From assembly GCF_008831285.2 (NCBI RefSeq), contig NC_045139.1:25958412-26022411 (forward strand): a stretch of 64,000 nucleotides of DNA. Reading direction: 5' to 3'. The notes beneath the pieces are model-generated. The model worked only from the letters and a program-made list of their open reading frames with translations, searched no databases and had not been told where the DNA came from. Within the stretch, counting starts at the first letter, position 1, and every line of letters begins with the position of its first letter. The translations under genes and the position numbers were made by a program. Below, piece by piece: positions 22,101 through 63,379 of this stretch. Origin of the DNA: Nymphaea colorata. Taxonomy: Eukaryota > Streptophyta > Magnoliopsida > Nymphaeales > Nymphaeaceae.

Positions 22101-23896
22101 TAAGCTTATGTTATCCTATATTTATGTATTTCTCTTGTTTAACAATGTTTCTTAAAAATGGAAGGTAGAGGTATAGCAGGACTAACCATGGACATGGTCA
22201 ATGCTGTGTTGGCTGTGGTCCATACACCTATAGCTAGAAGAATTGAATAATGAACTTGGTCAACTTTGACCAAGTAACATTTCCATATATCTTTAAGTTT
22301 AAATTGGAAGAGTTTATGTTAATTTGGGCATGTTTATTACTTGGTCAGTTTGTGATTGTGATTGTATCACTTGCTATTTTGCTTGCTTAAAATTTTTGAA
22401 GCCATAATTTTATTTGTTATAATATCTATAGGCTATAGCCGTTTCTTCACAACCATGTGACAGAGAAATTTAGGAGGATCTGTCATTGTATAAATATTTG
22501 TGTTTCTAGTGAAAAAGAATATTACATGTAATTTCTGTTGTCTGAACATGAGTCTTTAGAATTTGATCGATATGGCCTTCTGTGTAGAAGGCAAAATCAG
22601 AGATCTGGGTGTAATAATTTTCCAGATTGTCTTATTTTTCTTAAGTCTTCTTTTATGGTTTCCAACGTTTTTGTGCTCACAAAGCTTTAGTTGGATGTGA
22701 GATGTAAATTTTTTGCCTTTCATCCTTTGGTGAGTAGAACTAGGTTGGCTTATTTTTGCCCTCTTCTTACATGTGCATTTGTCTTGTACACCTTCATCTC
22801 TTCTAACCTGAGCATGCGTAGAATGTAATCTCATTTTTCAGACATTACCATGCATACAGAAACACTTATGTAGATCGTACTATTGAAGCCCCTTGGCTTA
22901 TTCTGATGGTTGGTTGAAATGATCAAACTGGTATATGGTAAGTAAAAAAGATATTCGAGATCACACCCACCCAGTAACTTTTAGTCTTTAGACTGTTCGG
23001 TAATTGTATTTTATTTCATCTGCATACTTATGTTTGAATCTTTGATGGATAATTTTTTTTATTCAGATGCACCAGTGTTTAGCATAAATTAGAGTCAGAG
23101 GATTAACTGGCCGCTTCTTATTTGTACTTGGTCAGCTTTCACAAACATGAATACAGTTTTGCTACTGCATCTGAGTAAAAACAGGAATTGGTCTCAATAT
23201 GAAATTTTGTGGCAAGTGATACATGTCATTTTCTCTGCAACTGGACACAGGAGTAAACTGGGGGAGGCTTTTTTCTTGACTCGATTTCACTTTTCCTCTT
23301 CCTCTATACAGTGTGACTTGCATTTTGAGGTGGGCATCATATAACGCAGTACCCTGTTGTCCACAGTGCAAGATGCCTTTCTCTTCTCTAGGTGTCCACA
23401 GGTCCCTTGATGGCTGGTAAGTGTGGCTGCTATTTTTGCTTTTCTTTTTTGTTGTTTTACCTTTTGTGAATGGACAAGGTTTGGGTTGATTGTTCCCTCT
23501 GTTGCATGATGTTCATTCTTCGAGTCTTTTGTTCTTATCCTGCTATGCAGTGTCCATGACTATCTCGTCGAGGAAAGTGTTTGTCTGTTGCTACGTGCAC
23601 ATTGGTTTATGCCCTTGGCCATTGAATCACCACATGAGGTTGTTGAACAAGAGGATGTCGGGCCATATGAATATGATGATGATGAAGATGATGATCATGA
23701 TGATTACGAGGAAGCTTATTTTGGTCGTTCATCTAATTTACGAATTGGAAACAGAAGATGGGGGGATAGCGGTTATGTTAGAGGCGGACGAAAAGAAGCA
23801 AGGCCTATTCAAGATGTTGGGGCTGGTTCATCTCGTGGGCCTCGTAAGAAAGAAGGACCAAAGGGTAAGGCTGGTAGACGGGCTAGGAGAGCCTAA
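19130..23896 (+). CDS. C3HC4 RING-finger protein with acidic tract, probable E3 ubiquitin ligase
   Basis: Exons are 19130-19174, 21945-22075, 23312-23416 and 23551-23896; they join into 208 codons plus TAA. The RING domain has C36-x2-C39-x14-C54-x-H56-x2-C59-x2-C62-x12-C75-x2-C78, so all eight zinc ligands of a C3HC4 finger are present. Cys59 is made from TG at the end of exon 2 and T at the start of exon 3. After the RING come a conserved VHRSLDG and VEESVCLLLRAHWFMPL block (about 87-115), an Asp/Glu tract (134-148), LRIGNRRWGDSGYVR (157-171) and a basic tail ending RRARRA. The family is a small group of plant RING proteins; E2-dependent ubiquitin transfer is inferred from the domain, and substrates are unknown. 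The tail may be shorter than in relatives. The first exon is short (15 codons) and is the least certain part. Intron 1 is 2.8 kb and carries repeat-like sequence near 20760-21060. Confidence 0.9.
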
Positions 23897-24399
23897 ACAA
23901 ATGGCAAGTTCAGCCTGAACAAAGACAGGGAACAGTTGATCTTTCCGCAACTTGCAGATTTATGAACTTACTTCATTACTCGATAACACCATTGTACATA
24001 TAGTTACTGCATTTTCGTTTCTGTTACTTCTTCTTCATGGAGTTCATTAAGAGCCCATTTTCCTTCAGCTTTGTGCTTATTGTTGGTAGCTTAGAACTAG
24101 GAAGTAGAGCAGTTGTAACTTGTCTATGGCAGAATGGTCGTTGGAGTTTCATGCATGTGGACCTGCTCACTGCAAGTTGCTTATGAACTTTTACGGTCAG
24201 GATGCTGAATAATGCAAATGCTTTCTTGTAGATTGTTGGTACTTGTTCAATACCTTCCTGTGCTTAAATGGCTGAGCGAGTTACGACATTGACATGTTTT
24301 CTGCATCAATATTGCACGGCGTTAAATACTCTGCACGTCCGACTCCTGGATTGACTCTTTCCCTGCTTAATTCGTGTGATATATAAGTTGTTGGGGCTC
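23897..24399 (+). other. 3' UTR and flank of the RING gene
   Basis: This stretch is copied, with decay, in both downstream pseudogene fragments: for example TTCATGGAGTTCATTAAGAGCCCA (about 24033) and AACTTGTCTATGGCA (about 24117). It shows how far the duplicated segment reaches beyond the stop codon. Confidence 0.6.
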
Positions 24400-26351
24400 A
24401 TCGTAACAATAAAAGAAACCAACACAGGTCAATAATCAGTACAGTTTTTATAAAACCTCTGGCTTTATACAGCAAACCTCAATGACAAAATAATGTTATA
24501 AATTCGGAATCCATTTCTAAGCTGCGACTTCGGCTGCCCACTTCTAAATTGCGTCGTGGGCTTTAAACTTTCAAACCAGAATTCATAGTGAAACCATTCT
24601 GCTTACGGTTGCTTTTGCAAACCCGAAAGGCAAGTGCTATCCTCGGCCGTCACAGTATCATTCTATCGTTCGGCGTTGTTGCTGCCGCCATCCTGCTCAT
24701 TGCCTGTCAAAGCAACACGTCACCGCCTGTCGCAGCTGAAACTCCATTTGTGCTATTGCAAGGCTAAAGCCTTGAGCAAATTGATCCATGTACAGCTTGC
24801 TTTACATACTCACCGCTTCAAGAGCTGCTTATCACCGTCTGCATCATTGAAGCCTTGCCTCCACAATTGCTTTGGGGCTTTTGCCCGTTATATTCTTCGA
24901 AGTCTTTTAATAATTGTTAATCGTTGCCCCTTTCACCTGCTCGCCCGTCTGCCGGAGCAGTCCATGACGTCCGCCATACCCAAAGCGTCATGTTCCGCTT
25001 CTGCCTTTGCATTGTTGAAGCCCTGAATAGACAGATACACGTTGTTGCTGCTACTCGCCTCACCTGCGTAATGCCTGCGGTAGTAGCCGGTCACCGTATG
25101 CCGCAGCTAAAGCATCTCCCTCTATCTCAATAGCTGCCAAAGCAGAAGTCGGAACATGGCGATGCCTCCCCTCCCTGCTGCCATCCGCCCAGCTAGATTA
25201 TCTCTATCCATTTAACCGCCTGTCTAGCAAAATTCCAACTGATTTTGCTGGTTATAACGACTCCCGTTCACTTTCCATATCAAATCAAGAGGCTTTATCC
25301 TGACAGTAAAAGATCAATCTACTTGTCTTGGTCAGGATCTTGTCATCTTGCGTATCTTTGTATACATCTCTTCCAGTATTTCGGCGGAAAATTAGACTAG
25401 AAAAACTTAACTGCTCCAGATAATGGAAGGGAGGAGGAAGCATGACTAGATTTGAATTCATATAATAGTGTAAATTAATAGACTGTTGATTTTTGAACTT
25501 CTCTTCGATTCTGAAATATAGATCCGCCCATGATACGCAAGACTGTTCAGACGCCCCTCAGTCGGTGGGAGCGGTTACATGTGGAAACAGCCCATGTTTA
25601 TCCATATCTGAGCTTTTCTTTCGACTTTCTCTTTATAAGCAAACCAAGAATGAAGAGATTGTAGGCTGCTTTTCGTTGAGCGAGATGGATATACAGGAAT
25701 AGGCTGTACGCACATAAAGGGAGGAGGAGGAGGAGGAGGAGAAGTGGTTTTAGCAGTAAGCTTCCGTTGATTTCCTCCTCGGTGCGTTGCTCAAACCAGA
25801 ATCGTGGAACTCCGGCGGTGTTTCTATTTCTAACGCCGTTTTCCGGTCGACCTACAAGAGTAGCGCGCCCATTTCATTATGTTGTATGATCAAGAAGGTA
25901 TGTTCCCACAACCTAACAATGGAATCAACGCAAGGTTATGCGATCTTGCGGCGGTTAACTCCTCCTGATCCTCCCATCATGGTTTTGCTGAACAGTGTTG
26001 GATGGAGGATAGCTTTCTTGTATGAAACTCAGGGAGTACTTCATGGGCAACCTGCTCTGGGTGAGAGAAAATCTGCAGCCATCCCCTTCATTTCCTTCAA
26101 TTGAGCCAAGATTTGTCTACTTGGTGCTTCAATTGAGCCAACATTTGTCTAATTGGTTTACCCTGCCACGTCTTGGTATTAGGTGTATCGCCTCTAGTCC
26201 AACTTCAGTTCTTTCCACTTTTCATACCTCGCCGTGATCTGCCGCTTATGTCCTCTGGTCTGGCCATGTGGGCCGTCCTATTCTATTCTTCTTCTTTCCC
26301 TGCTATGCTTTGCTGCTTTTATTTTTGACTTTTTCCGGAGTGAAGTTCTTG
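24400..26351. other. GC-balanced region, no gene recognised
   Basis: Open frames of 130 (24634-25026) and 105 (25787-26104) codons exist, but I recognise no domain in them. Part of it (about 24520-24640, with GGGCTTTAAA and TTTGCAAACCC) is repeated at about 27020-27130, so it was carried along in the duplication of the RING gene's 3' end. A GGA run lies at 25720-25744. Confidence 0.45.
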
Positions 26352-27140
26352 CGTTGTAGCATGATATTCATTGTTTGAGTTTCTCGTTCTTATCCTGTTG
26401 TATGGTGTCCATGACTATCTCATCTAGGAAGGTGTTTTGCTGCTACAGGCATTTTAGTTTATGCTCTTGGCCATTGAATCACAGGTTGTTTAATAAGACG
26501 ATGTTCTGCCGTTGTGGTATGAATGTGATGATGATAAAGATGATGACCGTGATGATTATGAGGAGGCTTATCTTGATTGTTCATTTGATTTGCAAATTGG
26601 AAACAGAAGGTTGGGGGACAATGGTTATATTAGAGGTGGATAAGAAGAAGTACGACTTATTTATTGTCAAGCTGTCGGGCTAGTTCATCTCGGGAGTTTA
26701 ATGAGAAAGAAGAATCAAAAAGTAAACATGGTAGACGAGCAAGGAATGATCAAAAAGTGAACTTGGTAGATGGGCAAGGAATGAGTCTTAACAAGGACGT
26801 GGAACAGTTGATCGTCGTGCAAGTTGTAGATTTTAGGTTGTTTCCTTTTATGAAGTTCATTATGAGCCCACTAGTGGTGCTTAGCTTCAGACTTATCCTT
26901 AGTAACTTAGTAAGTAGAGGAATTACTTGTCTATGGCAAAAAGCTTGTTAAAATTTCATGTAAGCGCAGGACATGATATAGGGATGAGTCTCTCAAACCA
27001 GCTTCACACCTGCCCCTAAATTGCAACTTGGGCTTTAAATTCACGAACCCAAATTTCATGATGAAGCAACTGGTGCTCACTTCCGCCCTTGCAAACCCAA
27101 ACCTCATGGGTCAGACATGCAAGTGCTTACCAAAAAGCAA
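26352..27140 (+). pseudogene. direct pseudogene copy of the RING gene's last exon and 3' flank
   Basis: It aligns with 23501-24640. It begins in intron 3 sequence (AGCATGATATTCATTG), passes TTCTTATCCTGTTGTATGG where the parent has the splice acceptor CTGCTATGCAG, then GTCCATGACTATCTCAT. A TAG replaces the parent's GAG two codons later. Frameshifts follow, but LRIGNRR-like and GGDNG-like coding remains legible (about 26590-26640), and the 3' flank is recognisable to about 27130. Intron and flank sequence show that this was DNA duplication, not reverse transcription. Confidence 0.85.
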
Positions 27141-27244
27141 TGCAATTTTGACATAAAAACTATGACAATGTGTAACCTACTCAACTACTTAAGTGCAGAA
27201 AGATATCTAGACAAAAGTATACATGACATCATTAGCATGGTTGG

Positions 27245-27910
27245 ACATCTTGCCGATAGTGGATAAGAAACTTGCAGTTAGCATCGGACTACTTATTCCA
27301 ATGAGCATTTTGCCATAGACAAGTTACACTTGTTCTACTTCCTAAGTTGTAAGCTACAGAGAGTTAAGTCCAAAGCCAAGCACCACTCAACAAACATGGG
27401 CTCTTAATGAACTCCATGAAAAAAAAAATTAACATAAACGAAACTGCAGTAACAATATGTACAAAGGTGTCACTGAGTAAATAAGATGTGGAACTTCCAA
27501 AATGATAATTGTTCCATGCCCTTGCTTGCTTAGGCCCTCCTTGTCCATCTGTCAGTCTTACCCATTTGACAGTACTTTCTTTCAAGACCCACAAAATGAA
27601 CTGGCCCAACATCTTAAATAAAACAGACCTTTTCATCTTTACAATCACCTCTAACACAACCACTATCCCCCCACCTTCTGTTTCCAATTTGTAAACTAGA
27701 TGAACGACCAAAATAAGCCTCCGCACAATCATCATGATCATCATCTTCATCATCATCATATTCGTAAGGCAGGATATCCTCTTGTTCAACAACCCCATAT
27801 GTTGTGATTCAATGGTCAATGCAATAAAACAATGTGCATGTAGAAGCAAACAAACACTTTCCTCAATGAGTAAGTCATGGACATTTCATAGCAGGATAAT
27901 GGCAAGAAAC
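27245..27910 (-). pseudogene. inverted pseudogene copy of the RING gene's last exon
   Basis: On the minus strand it follows the parent from the end of intron 3 (TTATCCTGCTATGAAATGTCC; the parent has CAG before TGTCC) through the GAGGAAAGTGTTTGT block, the GATGATGAAGATGATGATCA acidic tract, the GGAAACAGAAGGTGGGGGGA block and on into the 3' flank (TTCATTAAGAGCCCATG). The acceptor AG is lost and frameshifts break the frame. It lies head-on to the direct copy, about 100 bp away. Confidence 0.88.
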
Positions 27911-28474
27911 TTAAATAGAGAATACCATGCAATAGAAGACGAAACGGGTCACACTATATAGAAGAAGAGGTGAAGTAACAAGGAAGGGAAAATACCTTTC
28001 TCCAGTTTATTCTTATATCTAGTGCAGAAAAACAGCATATATCATTTGGCATAAAATGTTAAATGGGGATAATTCTTGGTGAAGTGACTACTTTTTATGA
28101 TTTCCTAAAAGAAACTATATTTTCATGAAAATTTTCAAAAAGCAAGACATATTAACTAAAACGATAAGAATGTCATATAGCGATAAAAGGTACATTTAGC
28201 CCTCATTTGGCACTTCTCATGAAGAGATAGCAATCGGATGTGGATATATATAATATAGTACTGTTTTTCTTAACTAATTTGATAAGTGGATCCAAACTTG
28301 GTATGTAGATCAGTAGCTCGAAACTGAAATTCTGGATTGGGTACTGAACCAGCTTGATATCGAGGATTTCTCATGTGGGTTCATCAGTTCCAACAGATTC
28401 AAATGGCTGAGCCGGCTGGAGTGTAAACTAAATGGTAGATCTACCTTGGGGCCGGCAGCTGTTACAACCACGCA

Positions 28475-47108: not shown

Positions 47109-47933
47109 TCAATAAGGAGGAGGGGCCCGAGAGGGAGGCACCCACGTGAAGGCGTCATGCGGCAGTTGGCAGCTCAATGGGTTGTACATGGACATGGAGC
47201 ACGCGTCCATCTCTGTCTCACTCTCCTTCTTCACTCCACCACCGACGCAGCCGTTGCCGCTGTTCATCCTCACGTCCTCGTCTTCGGCCGGAAGGCGGTG
47301 GAAGGAGGGGTTGTTGAACGCAGCGGCTATAAGGACGACAGGACTGGCGGCGACAAGGCTACCAGCGACTGTGCCGCCGACGACCTGGCCCTGGGCTCCG
47401 GCGAGAGAGATGGTGAAGGAGGAGGTGGAAGGGGAGGATGGGGAGGTGGGCAGGAGGTAGGTCCCTGTGAGAGAGAGGATGTCGAAACGGCCATGGAAGG
47501 TGAGGGTGGTGGCGGAAGGCCGGCCAGACGGAGCGCCGGCTGCGACGGTGGCGGGGTGGTGGAGGGACACATTGGCGACGGTGCCTTTACCGCTGATGAC
47601 GCAGAGGCCGAGGTGGTGGCGCCGGGCAAACTGCGCGACGCTCTCGACGACGTCGCAGCCCGCACATAGCTCTAGGACGTGGGGCCTCATGGCGTTCTCA
47701 GCGTCGCGAGTGATGACGATGGGCGGCTTCGGCTTGTTTTTTGACCCCGGCGGCCGGCCACGGGGCTTCCGCGCTACGTCGAGCGCCCCCATCGTCCCCT
47801 TCTTGATCTTGGCCGTCACTCCCCCTCCCGTGCTCCCGCTTTCAGCTTCCTCTTCCTCTGACGCCGGAGCGCACTCCCGGCCTCCCCTCCCCACTACTAC
47901 CAACGCCGTCCCTCTTCCTCCATACTCCGCCAT
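47109..47933 (-). CDS. AHL protein: AT-hook plus PPC/DUF296 domain (clade A, intronless)
   Basis: The 274-residue frame has a short acidic, glycine-rich N-terminus, a type-I AT-hook RKPRGRPPGSKNKPKPP at 55-71 whose R-G-R core enters the DNA minor groove, and a PPC domain at about 81-210. In it VLELCAGCDVVESVAQFARR, GTVANVSLHHP, FHGRFDILSLTGTYL and GQVVGGTVAGSLVAASPV are the conserved family blocks. AHL proteins sit in the nucleus, bind AT-rich DNA, form trimers through the PPC domain and act in growth and flowering control; the partners here are unknown. One AT-hook and no intron fit clade A. The C-terminal tail (211-274) is variable and ends in PPPY. I chose Met at 47933 because MAEYGG opens a normal AHL N-terminus; the frame stays open upstream to 48080 but that part has no family likeness. 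The coding region is far GC-richer than its surroundings. Confidence 0.95.
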   Translation of the reverse strand: MAEYGGRGTALVVVGRGGRECAPASEEEEAESGSTGGGVTAKIKKGTMGALDVARKPRGRPPGSKNKPKPPIVITRDAENAMRPHVLELCAGCDVVESVAQFARRHHLGLCVISGKGTVANVSLHHPATVAAGAPSGRPSATTLTFHGRFDILSLTGTYLLPTSPSSPSTSSFTISLAGAQGQVVGGTVAGSLVAASPVVLIAAAFNNPSFHRLPAEDEDVRMNSGNGCVGGGVKKESETEMDACSMSMYNPLSCQLPHDAFTWVPPSRAPPPY

Positions 47934-48255
47934 CCTTTTGCTAACCAGAGATAAAAGGTAGATAGATGGTCCTGGTAATAACAATCTATGAGAGAGAAGG
48001 AAAGAATTGGGAGGCTTCGGACAGCGTTGGGGTTTTAAAGAAGATGGCGTCCGGAGAGGAGTTGGACTATGTAGGAACAACTAGGGTTTTGTCACACTGG
48101 GAGGTAAAGAAAAAGATGGTGGAGGTTATTTCTGGGGGTTGTCATTCGGTCGGACCGATCAATCTTCTTCTTTGCCCTCCAATGTGGACCCACTTGGATT
48201 CTTCTCCTCCATCTATCCCATCCACGCCACCGAGAGAAGAGAGATCTAGGATTCT

Positions 48256-52648: not shown

Positions 52649-53904
52649 ATTCTTTAGTTCTGTATTCTTTCCATTAGATGGAAATTGAGTGAGAGGAAAA
52701 GAAAGAGCAATAAACGCAAAAGCCCTTCCTTGCCTTTCGAGTTCTGGGTTTCCATATAATTGATTTGTGATACACAGTTAACTTAGAGTGTCGTATTGCC
52801 ACTATTTGCATTTGCAGTATAGAATATAAAATTGACCACAAGACTTTTATGGGGGAGAGGGAGAGAAAGAGAAAGAGAGAAGGAGAGTTTAACATGGGCT
52901 TTTGAAAATGTGGCGCTTTCTCATTAATGTTAATCTCCGGTACTCAACCTTGTCATTTTCTCTTTGGTTCAAACATGATTATTAATAAATGGATACGGAC
53001 ATCCAATAGGGTTTTCTTACTAAATCTGTGTTATATATATATATATAAAAGGTATGAGGTATCTTGTGCGCCCTTTATAATATTTTGAATGCAATTGCAT
53101 GCAAATATATGGATACAATTTTTTAAACTTAATTTTATGTTCAAAATCATAAGTCAATATGCTGGTCTGAGTTCTCATTCGAGAAGTTAAATTAGGTATT
53201 ATAAAAAGTTACACTTGGTCAGAATCCGTTCCATAGAAATCCTTAATTTAACCAGGGCTCCATACTCAACAGTTTTCTTTATTACTCCCTGAATTTGAGG
53301 GCAGTACTATTGTTGTCAAAATCTTATGCCAGGACCATCCACGAGTACTTCACAGTTGTCAACGCCATGCTCTTCTGCGGCTGCATTTGTTTTCACGAGA
53401 AAGTAGAAATGAACGTCAAGCTGCTTTTCTTGCTGGCCGCAAGCAAGGAAAACGGAAAAGCTGGCTGCGAATGCATGTGTTAGTAGCAAAAAGAAATCCT
53501 GTTAGATCTACCTTTATTTTGAAACTGAACTGTTTGAAGGCTCTGTTGCATTGGTCGGACTGACGGACCAGTTAAAGTCTAGTTGTCCGTTTGATTCTAG
53601 TGATCGCTTTGAACAGAAAGTTGACGACCATAAGAATCAAACCCCGACGACTTTATCATCAAGTTCTAAAACTAGCTGCAGAAAATCAAAACGGGCACAT
53701 ACCCAACGACTTGTATTTCAAATAATTGCCTTTTATGTTATGAATCAGACATTAACATTTTAAATTTTTTCGGTTCTACTAAAATATCAGCCAATGAATG
53801 GCATATAATTGGTTCAAATTAACTACATATCATCGGTCGATTTCTGAAGGCCCCTGGCCGACGCCACATCCGCTAGCTATTGACAACCAAATGCATGGGA
53901 AGAA

Positions 53905-54029
53905 GGAAGGAGAGTTCAGCTTATCTTCCAACCTACTGAATGGTGCAGATAATTGTATGCCATGAGGACCAGATTCCTAACAACTTAGCTTAGAGACCAC
54001 CATCAGTTTGCAGCACTTCATGCATGTTC
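53905..54029. repeat. left part of the interrupted target-site repeat
   Basis: This flank, joined to 60853-60940, matches the uninterrupted stretch 61015-61230. Shared words include GGAGTTCA-CTT, AGATTCC-AACAACTTAGCTT and GCAGCACTT on this side. The copia B element therefore landed in one copy of a local tandem pair. Confidence 0.75.
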
Positions 54030-54464
54030 TGTTGGAGCTTTGCGATGAATCAAGACAGTGACCAAAAGTTGGAGCTTTGCGATGAATCAAGATAGTGACC
54101 AAAAGAAAATACAGAAATCGAAAACCATTCATAGATCCATGTGTTTCATAGGGCGGAAGTAGAACCTGTAGAGCAACCGCCGACTGAATGTCGGCGGCTG
54201 TTGGAAGAACGACTACAGTCCCCATAGAGTCGTTCCCCTGTGGAGGTAGCGGTGGCGGCAGCGGCAATGGGTTTCTCTCCTCAGCCATAGCAGCCCAGTG
54301 ATGGGGACAGGCAATTCACGTATCGCTAAGGGGACTGATTACCCAGATGGTAAAAACTGAATGTGTCTCACTTCATCACAAGACACGAGTATTTATACTT
54401 AAGGGTCCGAAACGGATATGGACCCGTATCGACGCAGGACTATTCAGATGGGGAAATCCCAACA
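54030..54464 (-). repeat. 3' LTR of copia B
   Basis: 435 bp; it matches the other LTR along its full length. The extra 37 bp come from a tandem duplication of GTTGGAGCTTTGCGATGAAT and the bases after it (54031 and again from 54068). On the minus strand a TATAAATA box lies at 54390-54397. Confidence 0.95.
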
Positions 54465-54478
54465 ATCTCTCACTAGTC
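54465..54478 (-). other. polypurine tract of copia B
   Basis: The minus strand reads CTAGTGAGAGATTG and then TGTTGGG. This is close to the AGTGGGAGATTGTTGG junction seen in many plant copia elements. Confidence 0.85.
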
Positions 54479-54661
54479 CAAGTCGATATCAAGGGTAAAC
54501 AAAATGAATGGATTAGCCTTAAAATCCATTCCAAGGTCCCACCTTTGTTGTCTTACAAAACTTCTCAACAAACAAATGAGAATACAAAACAAATAGACAA
54601 CAAACTTAATGAGAATCAACAAACTATATGATCACATTCATAAATATATATAATAGTGTGT

Positions 54662-56368
54662 TTACATTGAATTACACAAACCCATCCTCTTAACATGTTC
54701 AAAAAACATACCAGATGCTAGTGCTTTAATAAGAGGATCTGCAACCATATCTGTAGTCCCAATGTGTTGAATACACACTAGTTGATTCTCTGTCTGTTCC
54801 TTAACAACAAAATACTTAAGTTCCAGATGCTTACAAGAAGTAGTACTTTTGTTGTTATTGAAAAAGGACACTGCAGCTTCATTATCACAGTGAACCTTAA
54901 GTGGTCTATCAATAGATTCTGCTATTTTGATTTTTGAAATGAAGTTCTTTATCCAAATTGTCTGCGATGTAGTCTCATATAATGCAATGAATTCTGCTTC
55001 CATGGTATGAGCAACAGTCACAGTCTGCTTTTTGCTCCCCCATGAGATGGCACCTCCTGATAGAAGGAAAACAAAACCAGTAGTAGACTTTCTACTATCA
55101 GTACATCCTCCAAGATCGGCGTCAGAATAGCCAATCACTTCTAAATGGTCCACCTTGCGATATGTCAACATGTAATCTTTTGTCCCTTGCAAGTATCGCA
55201 TGACTCTCTTTACGGCCTTGCAATGTGCCATGCTTGGATTAGATTGAAATCTACCAAGCATGCCAACAGCAAAGGAAATGTCAGGCCTAGTGCAAATCTG
55301 CGCATACTGCAAGCTGCCAACCGCTGATGCATATGGAATGTTGATCATTTGTGTCTTTTCAAATTCGTTCTTTGGACAATCATTTAGGCTCAATTTATCA
55401 CATTTACCTATGGGTGCCGAAATGGGAGAACAATTCTTCATCCCATATCTCTTAAGTACTTTATTGATGTATGCTGATTGAGAGAGACTTAAAACACATT
55501 TAGATCTGTTTCGACGAATCTCAATGTCGAGAACAAATGAAGCCTCACCCATGTCCTTCATCTCAAAATGAGATGCGAGAAAATGTTTGGTTTCTGTTAG
55601 CAATTGAAGATCATTTGAAGCAAGTAAGATGTCATCCACATATAAATTCAAAATTATGAACTTACTCCCACATGTCTTAAGATACACACATCGATCAATG
55701 ATGTTTTCTGTAAACCCAAAAGTCGTAATGACTTCGGAAAACTTAATGTACCATTGACGTGAGGCCTGTTTAAGTCCATAAATTGCTTTATTAACCTTGC
55801 AAACCAAATGATCTTTACCACTCTCAGAAAACCCTTGAGGTTGATCCATATATACCTCTTCATTCAAATCACTATTTAAGAAAGCCGTTTTCACATCTAT
55901 TTGATGTAGCTCTAAGTCAAAATGAGCTACAAGTGCAAGAACAATCCTCATTGACTCTTTAGCAGAGATAGGTGAATATGTCTCATTATAGTCAACGCCC
56001 TCCATTTGTGTGAATTCTTTAGCAACCAATCTTGCCTTGTATCTCTCTATGTTGTCTTTAGAGTCCCTCTTGGTCTTATAGACCCATTTACACCCTACGG
56101 GTTTAACTCCTTCAGGCAACGACACAAGGCTCAATGTCTGGTTTTTAGCCATAGAGTCAAGCTCTTCTTTCATAGCATTAATCCAGTGTCTGTATTGTTT
56201 GCTTTCAACAGCTTCAATAAATGTGAAATGGTCATCATCAACATCTATGAAATCACTAGGCTCTTGTAGGTATACCACGTAGTCTAATGATATGGCAGAT
56301 CTCTTAGCTCTTGCAGGTCTACGAACAGGTAATTGATTATTTTCAATTTGTATGTCTACATCCTGTTT
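54662..56368 (-). pseudogene. copia B reverse transcriptase and RNase H
   Basis: The open frame 54662-56278 (538 codons) is intact. Its RVT_2 domain runs from the W-NAMKEELDSMAKNQT start through GCKWVYKTKRD, YKARLVAKEFTQ, VKTAFLNSDLNEEVYMDQPQG and the catalytic LYVDDILLAS motif. RNase H follows with GYSDADLGGC-DSRKSTTG, ISWGSKKQ, MEAEFIAL and HCDNEAA, and the frame ends just before the 3' LTR region. The usual opening is cut off: a TAG at 56369-56371 separates this part from the hinge upstream in the same frame. Enzyme motifs look unchanged. Confidence 0.92.
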
Positions 56369-56726
56369 CTATTCATCAGTATGATCTACATTTAATTCAT
56401 CTGGATCTGATGCATTACCTGTATGATTTGCATTCATGTCATCATGAGAGACAACATAATCATACACACTTGTATTCTCTTTAGCAGATCTACTTTCAGT
56501 ATCCTGTATTTCCTCAAAAATGAGGTTTTGTAATGTATCTAGTCCAAATGAGCCATCTTCCAGGAATTTAGCCTTATCTGTTTCCACAATATGTGGTGTA
56601 TCAGATGAACAATAAAACCTATAGCCTTTCGATCTTTCTAGATAACCAATAAAGAAAACCACTGGTTGTTCTATGATCAAAGGCCTTTATGTAAGGGTTG
56701 TATAATTTAGCTTCAACAGGACATCC
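56369..56726 (-). pseudogene. copia B hinge between integrase and RT, frameshifted
   Basis: The frame 56369-56680 carries a Glu/Asp-rich hinge, including FFIGYLERSKGYRFYCSS, where the integrase region passes into the linker. It is out of frame with the integrase part upstream; the two frames overlap near 56680-56700, so one indel lies there. Both limits of this segment are breaks: TGA at 56727 and TAG at 56369. Confidence 0.8.
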
Positions 56727-57848
56727 TCATATGTGCATATAAGAGAGAGAAGGTTTCTTACCTGTCCACAATTTGTAAGGAGTTGTGGGAACAGCCTTAG
56801 TAGGAATACTATTTTGTATATACACTGCTGTCTTAAGAGCTTCACCCCACATGGTTAAAGGGAGAGTGGAATAACTTAACATAGCTCGAACCATTTCTTT
56901 AAGCGTACAATTTTTTCTTTCAGCAACACCATTTTGGTAGGCGCTGCCAGGCATAGTGTATTGAGGCACAATGCCTTCTTCCTTTGGAAATCGTGCTAAT
57001 GGTCCCTCTTTGTGTCCCATCTCAGTAAACCTACCATAATATTCACCACATCTATCTGATCTGACTATCTTGATAACTTCACCGGTTTGTTTCTCTACTT
57101 CTTTCTTATAGTCTTTGAAAACTTGACACACATCGGATTTTTCAAAGATTAAGTAGAGATACAAATACCAAGAATAGTCATCTATAAAGGTGATAAAATA
57201 CTTTTCGCCTGTATAACAAGGAGGAAAATGTCCACAAACATCTGTGTGAACAATTCCTAATCTTTTAGTACATCGCTCGACACCTTCTTTATATATGTTA
57301 GTTTGTTTTGCCTTTATGCAATCTACACATATGCTTTTATCTGTAAAATCAAGAGATCGTAAGATCCCTTCATTTAAGAGTCTCCTTATTCTCTTTTCAG
57401 AGATATGACCCAAACGGTAGTGCCATAGCATGTACGAATCATCCTTTATGGTATTATGCTTATTGCCACTTATACAGTGACTAGAAACCAGCAATTCAGG
57501 AGATTGGATCTTCACATTCAATTTGTATAAACCATCACAAGTAGCAGAACCAATTTCAACAAGATCTTTATAAATGAACATCTTTGAATTCTCAAACTTT
57601 AAGCAGAAATCAAATTTGTCCAATCTTGATACAGAAATTAAGTTTCTACTATATGATGGAACAAAGAAAACATCATGAAGATCCAAAACAAAGCCAGTAT
57701 GAAGCCTAATATGGCATTCTCCTACAGCTTTCACATGTGAGCGCATTTTGTTTCCTGAAAAAATGCTTCTCTCATGTAGTGTTGGTTCTCTTTTGCTCAG
57801 AAAGTCCTGTAAAGAATTGATAATATGCACAATAGCACCTGAGTCAAT
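56727..57848 (-). pseudogene. copia B protease and integrase
   Basis: It begins directly after the amber codon at 57849-57851 with IDSGAIVHI, whose DSG is the aspartic protease active site. GAG-pre-integrase follows ([23 protein letters not shown]), then the integrase core with [32 protein letters not shown] and [22 protein letters not shown]. The three acidic catalytic positions appear present (D in HTDV, D in RSDR, E in AERK). RSDRCGEY has Cys where most copies have Gly. A TGA stands where HIWGC normally has Trp (56727-56729). Confidence 0.9.
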
Positions 57849-58631
57849 CTACCAGCTATTAATAGGAACATGTAACATATTACTTTCAAGTGAAACAAAT
57901 GACATATTACCTTTCTTATCTAACCAATTCTTGTACTTGATGCAGTCTGACTTCTTATGCCCCTTTTTCTTGCAAAAGAAACACTTTATAGGAGCTAAGT
58001 TAGTCTGCGCAGTTTGACTTATTGACTTCTTCTTGGCACTCCTTTTCATTGAACTTTTATTTATGCCAACTTTACCAGCCCCAGAGTGAGAAACAATATG
58101 TGCGGTTTGGAACTTCTCACCCTTCATTCTTTCCTCCTCTTCAACACAGTTAGACATCAATTCATTGAATGTCCATTCAGTATTATGTGTGTTGTAACTG
58201 ATCTTAAAAGGAGTATATTCAGCTGGTAAAGAGGTCAAAGTAAAGAATACCAAGAAAGATTCAGAAATAGTCAACTTCATATCATTCAATTGAGAAACAA
58301 TGTTCCTCATTTCTAACATATGCTGGTGAATGTTACCCCCTCCTTGATATTTCATAGATATTAACTTTGACATTAGGGTACTGGCTTTGGCTTTATGAGA
58401 GCTGACAAACTGAGTCTCAACTGCCAAGAACTCTCTCACTGTTCTACAAGGTGGGATAGCACCACGTATGTTCTTAGCGACCCTTGATTGCAAAAGCAAC
58501 AAGCTTAGTCGGTTAGAACGCTCCCACTTGTCAAAGTACACTGTTTCATTATGTGTACTTTGTGGTGTAAGAGGAGGTGGCTCAGGTCGCCTCAAAGCCA
58601 TATCTAAATCCATATACCCCAATGTAAACAC
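57849..58631 (-). pseudogene. copia B gag
   Basis: The 260-codon frame has a UBN2-type gag body (WERSNRLSLLLLQSRVAKNI, TLMSKLISMKYQGGGNIHQH, NDMKLTISESF) and a CCHC zinc knuckle, C-F-F-C-K-K-K-G-H-K-K-S-D-C, at about residues 215-230, followed by KYKNWLDKKG. Gag packages the genomic RNA into particles. The likely true start is the MDLDMALR methionine at about 58613; Met at 58631 adds six residues. In copia elements gag normally continues into protease in one frame; here TAG at 57849-57851 interrupts it. Confidence 0.9.
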
Positions 58632-59327
58632 AACATTTTATTTCCATTCAACATAATTAGAATCATCAAGTAAAGGGATAGAATTTGAGCCATTAAAATA
58701 AATAGAACCAGACACTGCAGATGACAAAAGACATCAATAAGTTGACATGCATTATATGAGACAAACTATATGAAGAAGTAAACTAAATAAAAGGCTCATT
58801 ATGTTTACTATTTCCAAGACAAATACCAGGAGTCGTTAGGATACTACTTTGGTAATATACCTAATATGCACATGTATTCCGTCTTAACTTTATCTAGTAA
58901 AACTAGAAAATGTAAATTCAAACTATAGTCAAGCATAACATCTTTGGATGTAAAATGACAAAACTATGTAAGAATATATTTTCCTCTTTTACTCTACTCA
59001 TTCTCTTGAACATAACACACTACCTTTGGGTAATTATGTTACTTCAAATGAGAATAAATACAACATGAACACTAATGTGCCTTTAAATCATGTGTAGTCA
59101 CTTTGGTGAGGTATAACATGATTTTATTAATCATAGGCTCTTTACATTAGCGTTATCATACGAACTTTATGATCATGCAACAAAATTAACTTCAGCATAA
59201 TCCTAAATAAAACATGTTATACAAGAATATGTTATAAAATCACATATAAAATAAAATACACATATCATTTCTGCATAATCAACTTAATGCTATCTAGATT
59301 GTTTATTAAAGCTCCATAAAACATAAT
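58632..59327 (-). other. AT-rich distal part of the copia B leader
   Basis: About 700 bp between gag and the repeat array have no frame or structure that I can assign. They are clearly AT-richer than the GC block further upstream. Confidence 0.6.
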
Positions 59328-59408
59328 GAATCGGTCCCGTATCGATCTAAAATGATCGAACCAATTCATTAAACACTGTAAATGGACATGCAACCACATA
59401 AACCGACT

Positions 59409-59624
59409 GAACCGGTGGAAAACTAGATGAACCGGTCCGAAAATGAAAAGAACCGGTCTCAAACAACTCTGAATCAGTTTGAAAAAGCCCGAATCGGTTC
59501 TCAAACTGAATGAACCGGTTTGAAAATCAACCGAACCGGTCCAGAAAAGATCCGAATCGGCCCCAAAAATCCTGAACCGGTCCCTAAAGGTCTGAATCGG
59601 TTCTGAAACAGACCGAATCGGTTC
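59409..59624 (-). repeat. array of eleven GAAYCGGTYY motifs at 20-21 bp spacing
   Basis: The motif starts at 59409, 59429, 59450, 59471, 59491, 59512, 59533, 59554, 59574, 59594 and 59615; steps are 20 or 21 bp throughout. Weaker members lie at 59328 and 59358. Cores such as GAACCGGTCC and GAATCGGTTC are nearly palindromic around CCGG, whereas the 10-11 bp between cores differ from unit to unit. The array lies in the transcribed leader of copia B, just before the GC-rich block on the plus strand. Confidence 0.93.
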
Positions 59625-59635
59625 TGTTTTAAAAT

Positions 59636-60419
59636 TCAGACCGTATGGATACGGGTCCGGTCGGACCCGACCCGATCAAGAAAATCAAAACACGGGCGAA
59701 AGAACGGGCGGGAACGAGAATTTTTTTTTTTAAAATCATTATGGATCCGGGTCATGACCCGACCAGGGTCCGACCCACCCGCTTGATCGCGCGAGCGATT
59801 TCGAGCGTCTTCTCCACCACTCGCCTGCCGAACGGCAGGCGGGCGGTGGTGTGCCACCGGCAGGCCACCCAACTCCGTGGGTGCCGACAGGGCGGCCGGC
59901 CATCGCCCGCCGCGATGGCCGGCCGTCCCCCACCGAAGACCGGCCGGAAACGGCCTTCCCCTTCCCATTTCTCGTTTTCCCCTTTCTTCAGATCTGGCGG
60001 TGGTTACAACAACGGAAACGCCGCCGGCAGGCCACCCATCGGCGTGGATGGTGGCCGGCGGGTCACGCCAGGAGGGCTGGAGGTCGGCCGTCGCCCAACG
60101 GCCGACCGACACACCCCTTATTCCCGGTTTCTGCTTTCTTTTTCCCTTATGTTCGCCCTTTTCTGTCTCTTGTTGCAATAGAAGCGCAGAGGCTTCCATC
60201 ACAACGGAGGGCGACAGATTCTGTCCCAAAGCAGTGGGTGGGTGCTGGCAAGACGCACGTCCGTCTCCTCTCCTTGTTCCTTTCTCTGCGGCTGCAACAG
60301 AAACCCAACGCTTCCGTTGCCCATTCTGCAACAGAGGAAGGAACAGGCACGCCAGTGCCCTCTTCTTCCACGTTTCTGCCCTATTCCTTTGCGTGAAAAA
60401 ACAGTATGCAAAGGGAAAC
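59636..60419 (-). other. GC-rich leader block of copia B with long open frames
   Basis: About 780 bp are very GC-rich and open on both strands. The minus frame 59636-60520 (294 codons) starts inside the 5' LTR, crosses the primer-binding region and ends beside the motif array. Neither strand gives a known domain. CCGGCAGGCCACCCA occurs twice (about 59858 and 60028). It may be captured host sequence or a structured RNA leader; the open frames may simply reflect base composition. Confidence 0.6.
59893..59925. other. perfect 14-bp GC hairpin in the copia B leader
   Basis: CGGCCGGCCATCGC (59893-59906) pairs exactly with GCGATGGCCGGCCG (59912-59925) around a 5-nt loop. In the transcript it would be a very stable stem-loop, of the kind used for packaging, dimerisation or control of translation in retroelement leaders. 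Confidence 0.85.
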
Positions 60420-60454
60420 GCGCAGCGGAAGCATGGAGTGGGCCCATAACCCAT
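60420..60454 (-). other. half-tRNA (initiator Met) primer-binding region of copia B
   Basis: On the plus strand the bases next to the 5' LTR read GCGCAGCGGAAGCATGGAGT and then GGGCCCATAACCCA. This follows plant initiator tRNA-Met from the D arm to the anticodon loop, with one substitution and two extra bases. The element's RNA can therefore pair with the 5' half of that tRNA. Copia of Drosophila is primed by just such a cut tRNA-iMet fragment. The pairing here is longer than the usual 12-15 bases. Confidence 0.85.
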
Positions 60455-60852
60455 TGTTGGAGCTTTGCGATAAATCAAGATAGTGACCAAAAGAAAATGT
60501 AGAAATCGAAAACCATTCATAGATCCATGTGTTTCATAGGGCGGAAGTAGAACCTGTAGAGGCGACCGCCGACTGAATGTCGGCGGCTGTTGGAAGAACG
60601 GCTACAGTCCCCATAGAGTCGTTCCCCTGCGGAGGTAGCGGCGGCGGCAGCGGCAATGGGTTTCTCTCCTCAGCCATAGCAACCCAGTGATGGGGACAGG
60701 CAATTCACGTATGGCTAAGGGGACTGATTACCCAGACGGTAAAAACTGAATGTGTCTCACTCCATCACAAGACACGGGTATTTATACTTAAGGGTCCGAA
60801 ACGGATATGGACCCGTATCGACGCAGGACTATCCAGATGGGGAATCCCAACA
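60455..60852 (-). repeat. 5' LTR of copia B
   Basis: 398 bp with ends TGTTGGAG and CCCAACA on the plus strand. It lacks the 37-bp tandem duplication of its partner. Transcription should run leftward from here. Confidence 0.95.
60779..60786 (-). promoter_or_regulatory. TATA box of the copia B LTR
   Basis: The minus strand reads AAGTATAAATACCCGTGTC; the box lies about 70 bp inside the LTR's 5' end, leaving a short U3. It is conserved in the other LTR (54390-54397). Confidence 0.75.
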
Positions 60853-61014
60853 TGTTCTTATGCTTATCTTTTCGCTTTTATATAATGTCCTCTTTGTCTT
60901 GTAGAAAATATTTTTCAAATATTTGTTCTTCGTTTTAGAGGCCCAGCCCATTGAGCTGATCTAATTTGGAGAGGCCCATACACATCCAGTCGATATTCAA
61001 GTACATTTGGGAAG

Positions 61015-61230
61015 ATGAAGTGGAGTTCAACTTGGGGCAGCTTCCATCTTACTGGATATTGCGGATTGCATGTGAGAAGGACGACACAGATTCCGAACAA
61101 CTTAGCTTGGGGATCACCATTAGCATGCAGCACTTTATACTTGTTATTGTGTTTATGTCTTTGCTTTATATGATGTCCTCTTTGTCTTATCGCACTAATT
61201 TCTCTACTACTTTGTTTGTTCTTGCTTTGA
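61015..61230. repeat. uninterrupted paralogue of the copia B target site
   Basis: GATTCCGAACAACTTAGCTT and GCAGCACTTTATACTTGTTA at about 61090-61147 run on without a break into ATGATGTCCTCTTTGTCTTA, matching the left flank of copia B followed directly by its right flank. Open frames exist on both strands (101 plus, 155 minus), but no domain was recognised. Confidence 0.8.
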
Positions 61231-63035: not shown

Positions 63036-63225
63036 GAGCTCGATTTGATAAAAGCAGCTCGACTCGATTAAGGCTCAACAAACTCGTTTGAATAGAACTG
63101 ATATTCATTAAACATCGAGCTCGATAAAAGCAGCTCGACTCGATTAAGGCTCAACAAATTCGTTTGAATAGAATTGAATTCATTGTTACAGGTTGTCGGC
63201 TCGACAAATTTGTTTGAATAGAATT
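63036..63225. repeat. ~81-bp tandem repeat, two full units and a partial third
   Basis: GAGCTCGAT-GATAAAAGCAGC begins units at 63036 and 63117; each runs through CGATTAAGGCTCAACAAA-TCGTTTGAATAGAA-TGA. A third partial unit (CTCGACAAATTTGTTTGAATA) follows at about 63201. It lies inside the hAT-like element. Confidence 0.85.
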
Positions 63226-63379
63226 GATATTCATCCTTATGTGTTGAATTTTGAACGGCTAACTCATGAACTTGAGCTCGACTCGTTAAGCAAATGTCTC
63301 GGCTCGAACTCGTTCATGAGCCGAGCTTTAACGAGTCAAATTCAAGTAGCTCGACTTGTTGTTCACCCCTAACTAAGGG

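Follow-up and report, generated by a model that had tools for sequence, protein, structure and literature searches.

The window analysed here, a stretch of 64,000 nucleotides, holds a Ty1/copia LTR retrotransposon on the minus strand, whose leader carries a regular array of short motifs. The element is bounded by a 5' LTR (60455..60852, minus strand, with a sense TATAAA at 60786) and a 3' LTR (54030..54464, minus strand), both with TG...CA ends and separated by 16 substitutions in 396 aligned bases. A 5-bp target site duplication, TGTTC, was read directly from the plus strand at 54025..54029 and 60853-60857. At its low-coordinate end the 3' LTR contains a 37-bp tandem duplication of the terminus (54030-54104), which the 5' LTR does not have.

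The coding part of the element begins with gag (57849..58613, minus strand; Retrotran_gag_2), which has an in-frame ATG at 58613. It is followed by the remains of pol (54662..57830, minus strand) in three separate open stretches: integrase (57830-56727), an SH3-like stretch (56680-56369), whose match scores below its curated cut-off, and reverse transcriptase (56278-54662). With each open stretch scanned separately, the order of Pfam domains was Retrotran_gag_2, gag_pre-integrs, rve (just at cut-off) and RVT_2. Integrase thus precedes reverse transcriptase and the domains are of copia type, both as expected of Ty1/copia. The initial annotation had placed the array in the leader of a copia element, and this was borne out by the LTRs, the target site duplication and the copia-type domains in copia order. 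As pol is interrupted, this copy looks dead. The host sequences that flank the element (53896-54028 and 61008-61145) are about 73% alike, as though it had landed in one member of a tandem duplication.

The primer binding site and the leader

The primer binding site (60420..60453, minus strand) is complementary to nucleotides 10-41 of initiator tRNA-Met. Aligned with the human initiator tRNA-Met (PMC8216282), it gave 30 identities, 2 mismatches and 2 gaps, with a score of 47; none of 1508 other stretches scored above 30. This match, with human tRNA as the reference, makes the element one of the half-tRNA-Met type. In the available text of PMC6317226, such priming is described for Osser, Bryco and part of Gymco-II, whereas most other copia groups use the tRNA 3' end; the element shares the primer binding site of the former groups. 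Priming of this kind would be unusual if the host is a flowering plant.

The leader (58614..60454, minus strand) is 1841 nt long and contains 42 upstream ATGs. The array separates its GC-rich half (59636-60454) from an AT-rich one, which lies on the gag side. An upstream open reading frame of 272 codons (59636-60454, minus strand) begins beside the primer binding site and leaves a gap of 11 bp to the array. It had no Pfam match at E 0.001 and the other frames are open as well, so it was rejected as a captured gene and is probably a chance product of GC richness. No Rfam family at gathering score and no tRNA gene were found in the 64-kb window. From the TATA box, which has only about 66 bp of LTR upstream of it, the array is 1.16-1.38 kb away in the downstream direction.

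Cores and spacers of the array

The array (59409..59624, on the element's minus strand) comprises 11 near-palindromic cores, GAAYCGGTYY on the plus strand, with a mean period of 20.6 bp. Because the element lies on the minus strand, its RNA would carry these as RRACCGRTTC together with U-runs. The cores start at 59409, 59429, 59450, 59471, 59491, 59512, 59533, 59554, 59574, 59594 and 59615, with successive spacings of 20, 21, 21, 20, 21, 21, 21, 20, 20 and 21 bp. Eight of the 11 match GAAYCGGTYY exactly, two (59471, 59554) have one mismatch and one (59409) has two. A pattern for two cores 9-12 bases apart, CGGTYYN{9,12}GAAYCGGT, has five matches in the window, all inside the array, as compared with a mean of 0.00 over 100 shuffles. 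Together with the core starts, this count confirms the earlier description of eleven motifs spaced by 20 or 21 bp. The core was first picked by eye from the sequence before testing; the column tests reported below scan all positions.

Other parts of that description needed qualification. The cores had been called near-palindromic, which holds for half-sites (the left half is perfect in 6/11 and the right half in 3/11), but none is the full palindrome GAACCGGTTC and in none are both halves perfect. Each core had also been said to hold CG, often as CCGG; CG is present in ten cores and missing from one, and CCGG occurs in 6/11. An outlying exact core, GAATCGGTCC (59328..59337, plus strand), lies 81 bp before the first core of the array, within an arm of an inverted repeat (59325-59370) that is imperfect, was read by eye and is absent from the five longest pairs listed.

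Ten of the 11 units contain an A-tract of 3-5 A on the plus strand (59419..59608), which becomes a U-run in the RNA of the element; its midpoint lies 7-9 bp from that of the core. The A-tract columns 13-15 have an identity of 0.72 between units, a value reached by 0/2000 within-spacer shuffles. The cores are in phase (R 0.97) if the helical repeat is 10.3, while a repeat of 10.5 gives R 0.76 and turns the two ends of the array about 137 degrees apart. Neighbouring cores hence point nearly the same way at either value, and the whole array does so only at 10.3, so that the proposal that all cores face the same side of the DNA stands for a helical repeat near 10.3 and fails at 10.5. Bending of the DNA by phased A-tracts was considered and rejected: the curvature of the array, predicted with wedge parameters, is only mildly raised and was matched by 39/500 spacer shuffles and by 16% of window stretches.

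The contrast between cores and spacers is the main property of the array. Pairwise identity between units is 0.886 in core columns 1-8, five of which are invariant, and 0.40 in the last ten columns (11-20), which form the spacer. The conserved columns are contiguous, an arrangement equalled by 59/20000 random column permutations. In this one copy, the seven columns of the spacer that do not belong to the A-tract agree no better than by chance: their identity is 0.262, compared with 0.265 when letters were shuffled among them, and 1096/2000 shuffles reached the observed value. C-to-T decay of CCGG was examined as a source of the Y at core position 4 and was not adopted, as T stands at that position in 5/11 units but A at position 7 in 0/11.

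We weighed this contrast against a neutral origin, in which the array is an old tandem repeat in a retrotransposon untranslated region, made by slippage or template switching, with cores and spacers differing by chance. The regular 20-21 bp period is what such an origin would leave, and it is joined by a weak higher-order repeat, in which 59400-59520 matches 59503-59623, 103 bp away, at 71%. Tandem repeats in untranslated regions are, moreover, described as common in the plant Tat lineage, Ogres included, in the available text of PMC7004042. In a neutral model of tandem block duplication with equal rates, however, the contrast was reached in 0/4000 kept runs (of 36020 made), and with strongly unequal column rates in 4/4000 kept runs (of 24164 made). 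Chance-level spacers outside the A-tract beside invariant core columns also speak against it, and we consider a neutral origin unlikely.

As a rough yardstick, since its arrays were selected by the same motif, we used 29 control loci, which are matches to a three-core pattern (27 loci in prokaryotic and 2 in viral contigs) unrelated to the element. Spacer identity was 0.68-1.00 in the nine loci with five or more units and went down to 0.36 in the 15 loci with three or four; the remaining five, being chains of two units only by the chain rule, gave no identity value. The initial annotation had held that cores are kept while spacers differ, the opposite of a simple recent tandem duplication. Within this copy the contrast indeed exceeds that expected from neutral tandem duplication, with the correction that the spacers themselves carry a conserved A-tract.

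RNA folding and CpG content

The cores are self-complementary, and the transcript was analysed for structure accordingly. On the sense strand the array has a minimum free energy (MFE) of -87.8 kcal/mol (z -6.2), with 0/200 shuffles as low, and is the strongest sense-strand fold among the 18 windows scanned; on the antisense strand the values are -69.0 kcal/mol and z -3.95. Other leader windows reach z -4.9 on the sense and -6.2 on the antisense strand. In the AT-rich half (58840-59195), sense folds beat shuffles (z -4.9 and -4.6) and antisense folds do so less (-2.2 and -2.6).

When the cores were kept fixed and spacer letters were shuffled across spacers, folds as good as the observed one appeared in 4/300 cases for the sense and 67/300 for the antisense strand; shuffling within each spacer gave 7/300 and 29/300, respectively. 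The fold of the array RNA is largely a by-product of core self-complementarity, with a modest excess on the sense strand. The sense fold was also reached after reordering of units in 49/300 cases, after permutation of cores in 68/300 and after permutation of core letters within columns in 63/300. A structure fitted to the order of units was therefore rejected.

These figures bear on the possibility that the array acts as an RNA element, in which paired cores of the sense transcript would form a rod of short helices with U-rich loops, serving Gag binding or the dimerisation and packaging of genomic RNA. Its strength lies in the low sense-strand energy and in the advantage of the sense strand over arrays with the same cores and shuffled spacers, and conserved signals for dimerisation and packaging are ascribed to BARE (PMC3735527, in the text available). 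Against it count the indifference of the fold to unit order, the good folding of the antisense strand and of other leader windows, and the fact that neither helical phasing nor the CpG pattern is needed for a role in RNA. The sense-strand excess makes such a role possible, though less supported, and we regard it as improbable. The Gag-RNA binding array suggested earlier is consistent with the sense-strand z-score, but is not specially supported by it, as the fold is owed largely to the self-complementary cores.

The ratio of observed to expected CpG (O/E) is 1.31 in the array, 1.03 in the GC-rich half of the leader, 0.91 in the 5' LTR and 0.84 in the 3' LTR, compared with 0.33 in gag-pol and 0.30 in the AT-rich, CpG-poor half (measured over 58632-59320). 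Because the value falls to 0.30-0.33 beyond the array, the latter forms the inner edge of a CpG-undepleted domain of LTR and leader. Six of the 25 CpG sites differ between the two LTRs, which indicates that CpG decay does occur in this element.

Six exact CG-bearing dyads, two of them overlapping, adjoin the array on the side of the GC-rich half (59641..59859): CCGTATGGATACGG, GGGTCCGGTCGGACCC, GGTCGGACCCGACC, CGGGTCATGACCCG, CCTGCCGAACGGCAGG and CGGTGGTGTGCCACCG. In 59636-59860, a stretch chosen after the list of dyads had been seen, there are 6 distinct dyad centres against 0.37 expected (0/500 shuffles), and over the whole GC-rich half (59636-60454) there are 7 against 0.97 expected (0/500 shuffles).

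The same CpG values weaken two proposals related to methylation. The array had been suggested to be a methylation platform, and this was not upheld in the form proposed, as an O/E of 1.31 beside 0.33 in gag-pol would be the opposite of the trace expected from long methylation. Alternatively, the array could be read by the host and not by the element, its CG- and CCG-bearing palindromes drawing siRNA and methylation to the leader. The presence of CG in ten cores and the self-complementary RNA agree with this, and a maize study, in its available text, connects small RNAs and methylation with structures of this sort in both genes and transposable elements (PMC10760457). The undepleted CpG of the array is, however, unlike the legacy of long methylation in an element where CpG decay does act, and a motif useful to the host alone, as a defence against the element, would not be expected to persist. 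We thus find a silencing target very unlikely.

Possible function and likeness to known elements

We suggest that the array is a cis-regulatory cluster of putative sites at which a sequence-specific DNA-binding protein of the host docks, a reading to which we give about an even chance. It is based on the core-over-spacer contrast in contiguous columns, the chance level of the rest of the spacer and the failure of the neutral models, and further on the high spacer identity of the control arrays with five or more units. The phasing of the cores, the CpG pattern, the six adjacent dyads and the position of the TATA box point the same way; with so little LTR before the TATA box, there is small room for control sites upstream. 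Precedents are offered, in the available texts, by the motifs of Sireviruses, the gypsy insulator and the leader of Drosophila copia. The conservation within this copy fits the putative protein-binding array proposed in the initial annotation.

If such a protein exists, neighbouring molecules would line up along one face of the DNA and aid one another's binding. The occupied array might then act as a downstream enhancer or a boundary, and would in this way keep the domain of LTR and leader open for transcription. The anatomy of the array and the likeness of its cores are seen directly within the one copy, whereas binding, the protein and its effect are what we infer from them.

Several points count against docking sites. 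The evidence comes from a single copy of the element: searches in viral contigs found neither relatives of the reverse transcriptase and integrase stretches nor a match to the LTR-end pattern (0 matches). Tandem duplication also yields a spacing of 20-21 bp, and at more than 1 kb downstream of the TATA box the array is remote for a promoter-proximal element. Among the 15 controls of three or four units, spacer identity fell as low as 0.36, and the predicted curvature is unexceptional, which lends no support to bending by the A-tracts. A literature search found no plant protein binding the GAAYCGGTYY core. Grainyhead was considered as the binder, as the core is nearly identical to the Grainyhead/CP2 site AACCGGTT, but was rejected because the family is stated to be confined to opisthokonts (animals, fungi and their kin) in the available text of PMC3348937, whereas the host here is probably a plant, to judge from the PCC-domain gene in the window (47109-48080) and the type of the element.

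Among plant elements, the Sireviruses come closest. According to the available text of PMC2829016, their palindromic motifs, most of which contain CG, number 8-32 and are placed in the 3' LTR and mostly before env. All elements but one show a CGG-CCG signature, and in most cases the clusters border predicted CpG islands; the motif is called Sirevirus-specific and absent from classic elements. The likeness lies in many short palindromic CG-bearing motifs in the non-coding DNA of a Ty1/copia element near CpG-undepleted zones. The array described here differs in its place in the 5' leader, in its core with CCGG or TCGG, in its 20-21 bp phasing and in the A-tract of each unit. No named plant element with such a feature was known to the initial annotation; that statement needs qualification in view of the Sirevirus motifs, which differ in place and core, and of the leader sites of gypsy in Drosophila. 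Our searches of open-licence literature, which omits most subscription journals, returned no report of a comparable array in a plant leader.

The element itself does not pass as a Sirevirus by polypurine tract (PPT) octamer, LTR length, linker length or repeated LTR dyad. The octamer AGGGGGAG (or its variant ending in GAA), of which Sireviruses have several copies close to the 3' LTR, is absent from the sense strand of the element, where the junction reads AGTGAGAGAT/TG. The element is 6.8 kb long, with a linker of about 0.2 kb (54465-54661) and LTRs of 0.40-0.44 kb, as opposed to 8.5-14.4 kb, 0.5-4.0 kb and 0.5-1.7 kb, respectively, in Sireviruses (PMC2829016, available text). In place of the repeated CGG-CCG palindromes, the 5' LTR has one exact CG-dyad centre (arms of at least 6), a number reached by 87/500 shuffles. 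The AT/TG attachment site itself is present.

In plan, the array appears closest to the gypsy insulator of Drosophila, to which its core is unrelated. That insulator has 12 copies of a 12-bp Su(Hw) core within 340 bp of the 5' untranslated region, separated by short AT-rich spacers (PMC2374998, in the text available). In both, the leader holds eleven or twelve core sites with AT-rich stretches between them, a likeness of plan only. Gypsy is an insect element with variable spacers and a core, TGCATA, that bears no relation to ours, and the Su(Hw) consensus YRYTGCATAYYY, as given there, is not matched by GAAYCGGTYY; binding and insulation are established for gypsy, while the array is known by its sequence.

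Two further systems share single traits with the array. The leader of Drosophila copia, likewise a copia element, is bound by host chromatin proteins, although the available text of PMC2443393 does not describe a phased array of this kind; the title of Wilson et al. 1998, cited in PMC2829016, speaks of an enhancer region holding sites to which regulatory proteins bind. The hypervariable repeats of Tat and Ogre elements are also tandem arrays in a non-coding part of plant LTR retrotransposons (PMC7004042, available text). They belong, however, to the 3' untranslated region of Ty3/gypsy elements, their monomers vary in sequence and length, and a contrast of core and spacer is not described in that text.

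A bolder version, which we put forward tentatively and hold to be decidedly unlikely, makes the array the plant equivalent of the gypsy insulator. It would comprise phased putative sites for a plant architectural protein and form a boundary that holds the CpG-rich LTR and leader open while the body of the element is silenced, having arisen independently in a lineage of classic copia elements primed by half-tRNA-Met. Should the array bind a host protein, it could be used as bait for finding a plant factor recruited by retrotransposons, and would offer a natural test for boundary-like elements in plants comparable to the gypsy insulator. Clusters of CG-bearing palindromes, Sirevirus-specific according to the text available of PMC2829016, would then extend to classic copia elements and to the leader.

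The surrounding window contains further repeats and a gene. Three related stretches, about 73% alike and one of them inverted with respect to the other two, occupy 23498-27936, and two of them contain runs of ATG/ATC triplets. A gene with a PCC domain (47109-48080, minus strand) has an AT-hook-like RGRPPGSKNKPK stretch, and we take the two together to mark an AT-hook protein of the plant AHL type. Outside the element, imperfect repeats rich in GCTCGA words form a degenerate cluster at 63047-63340.
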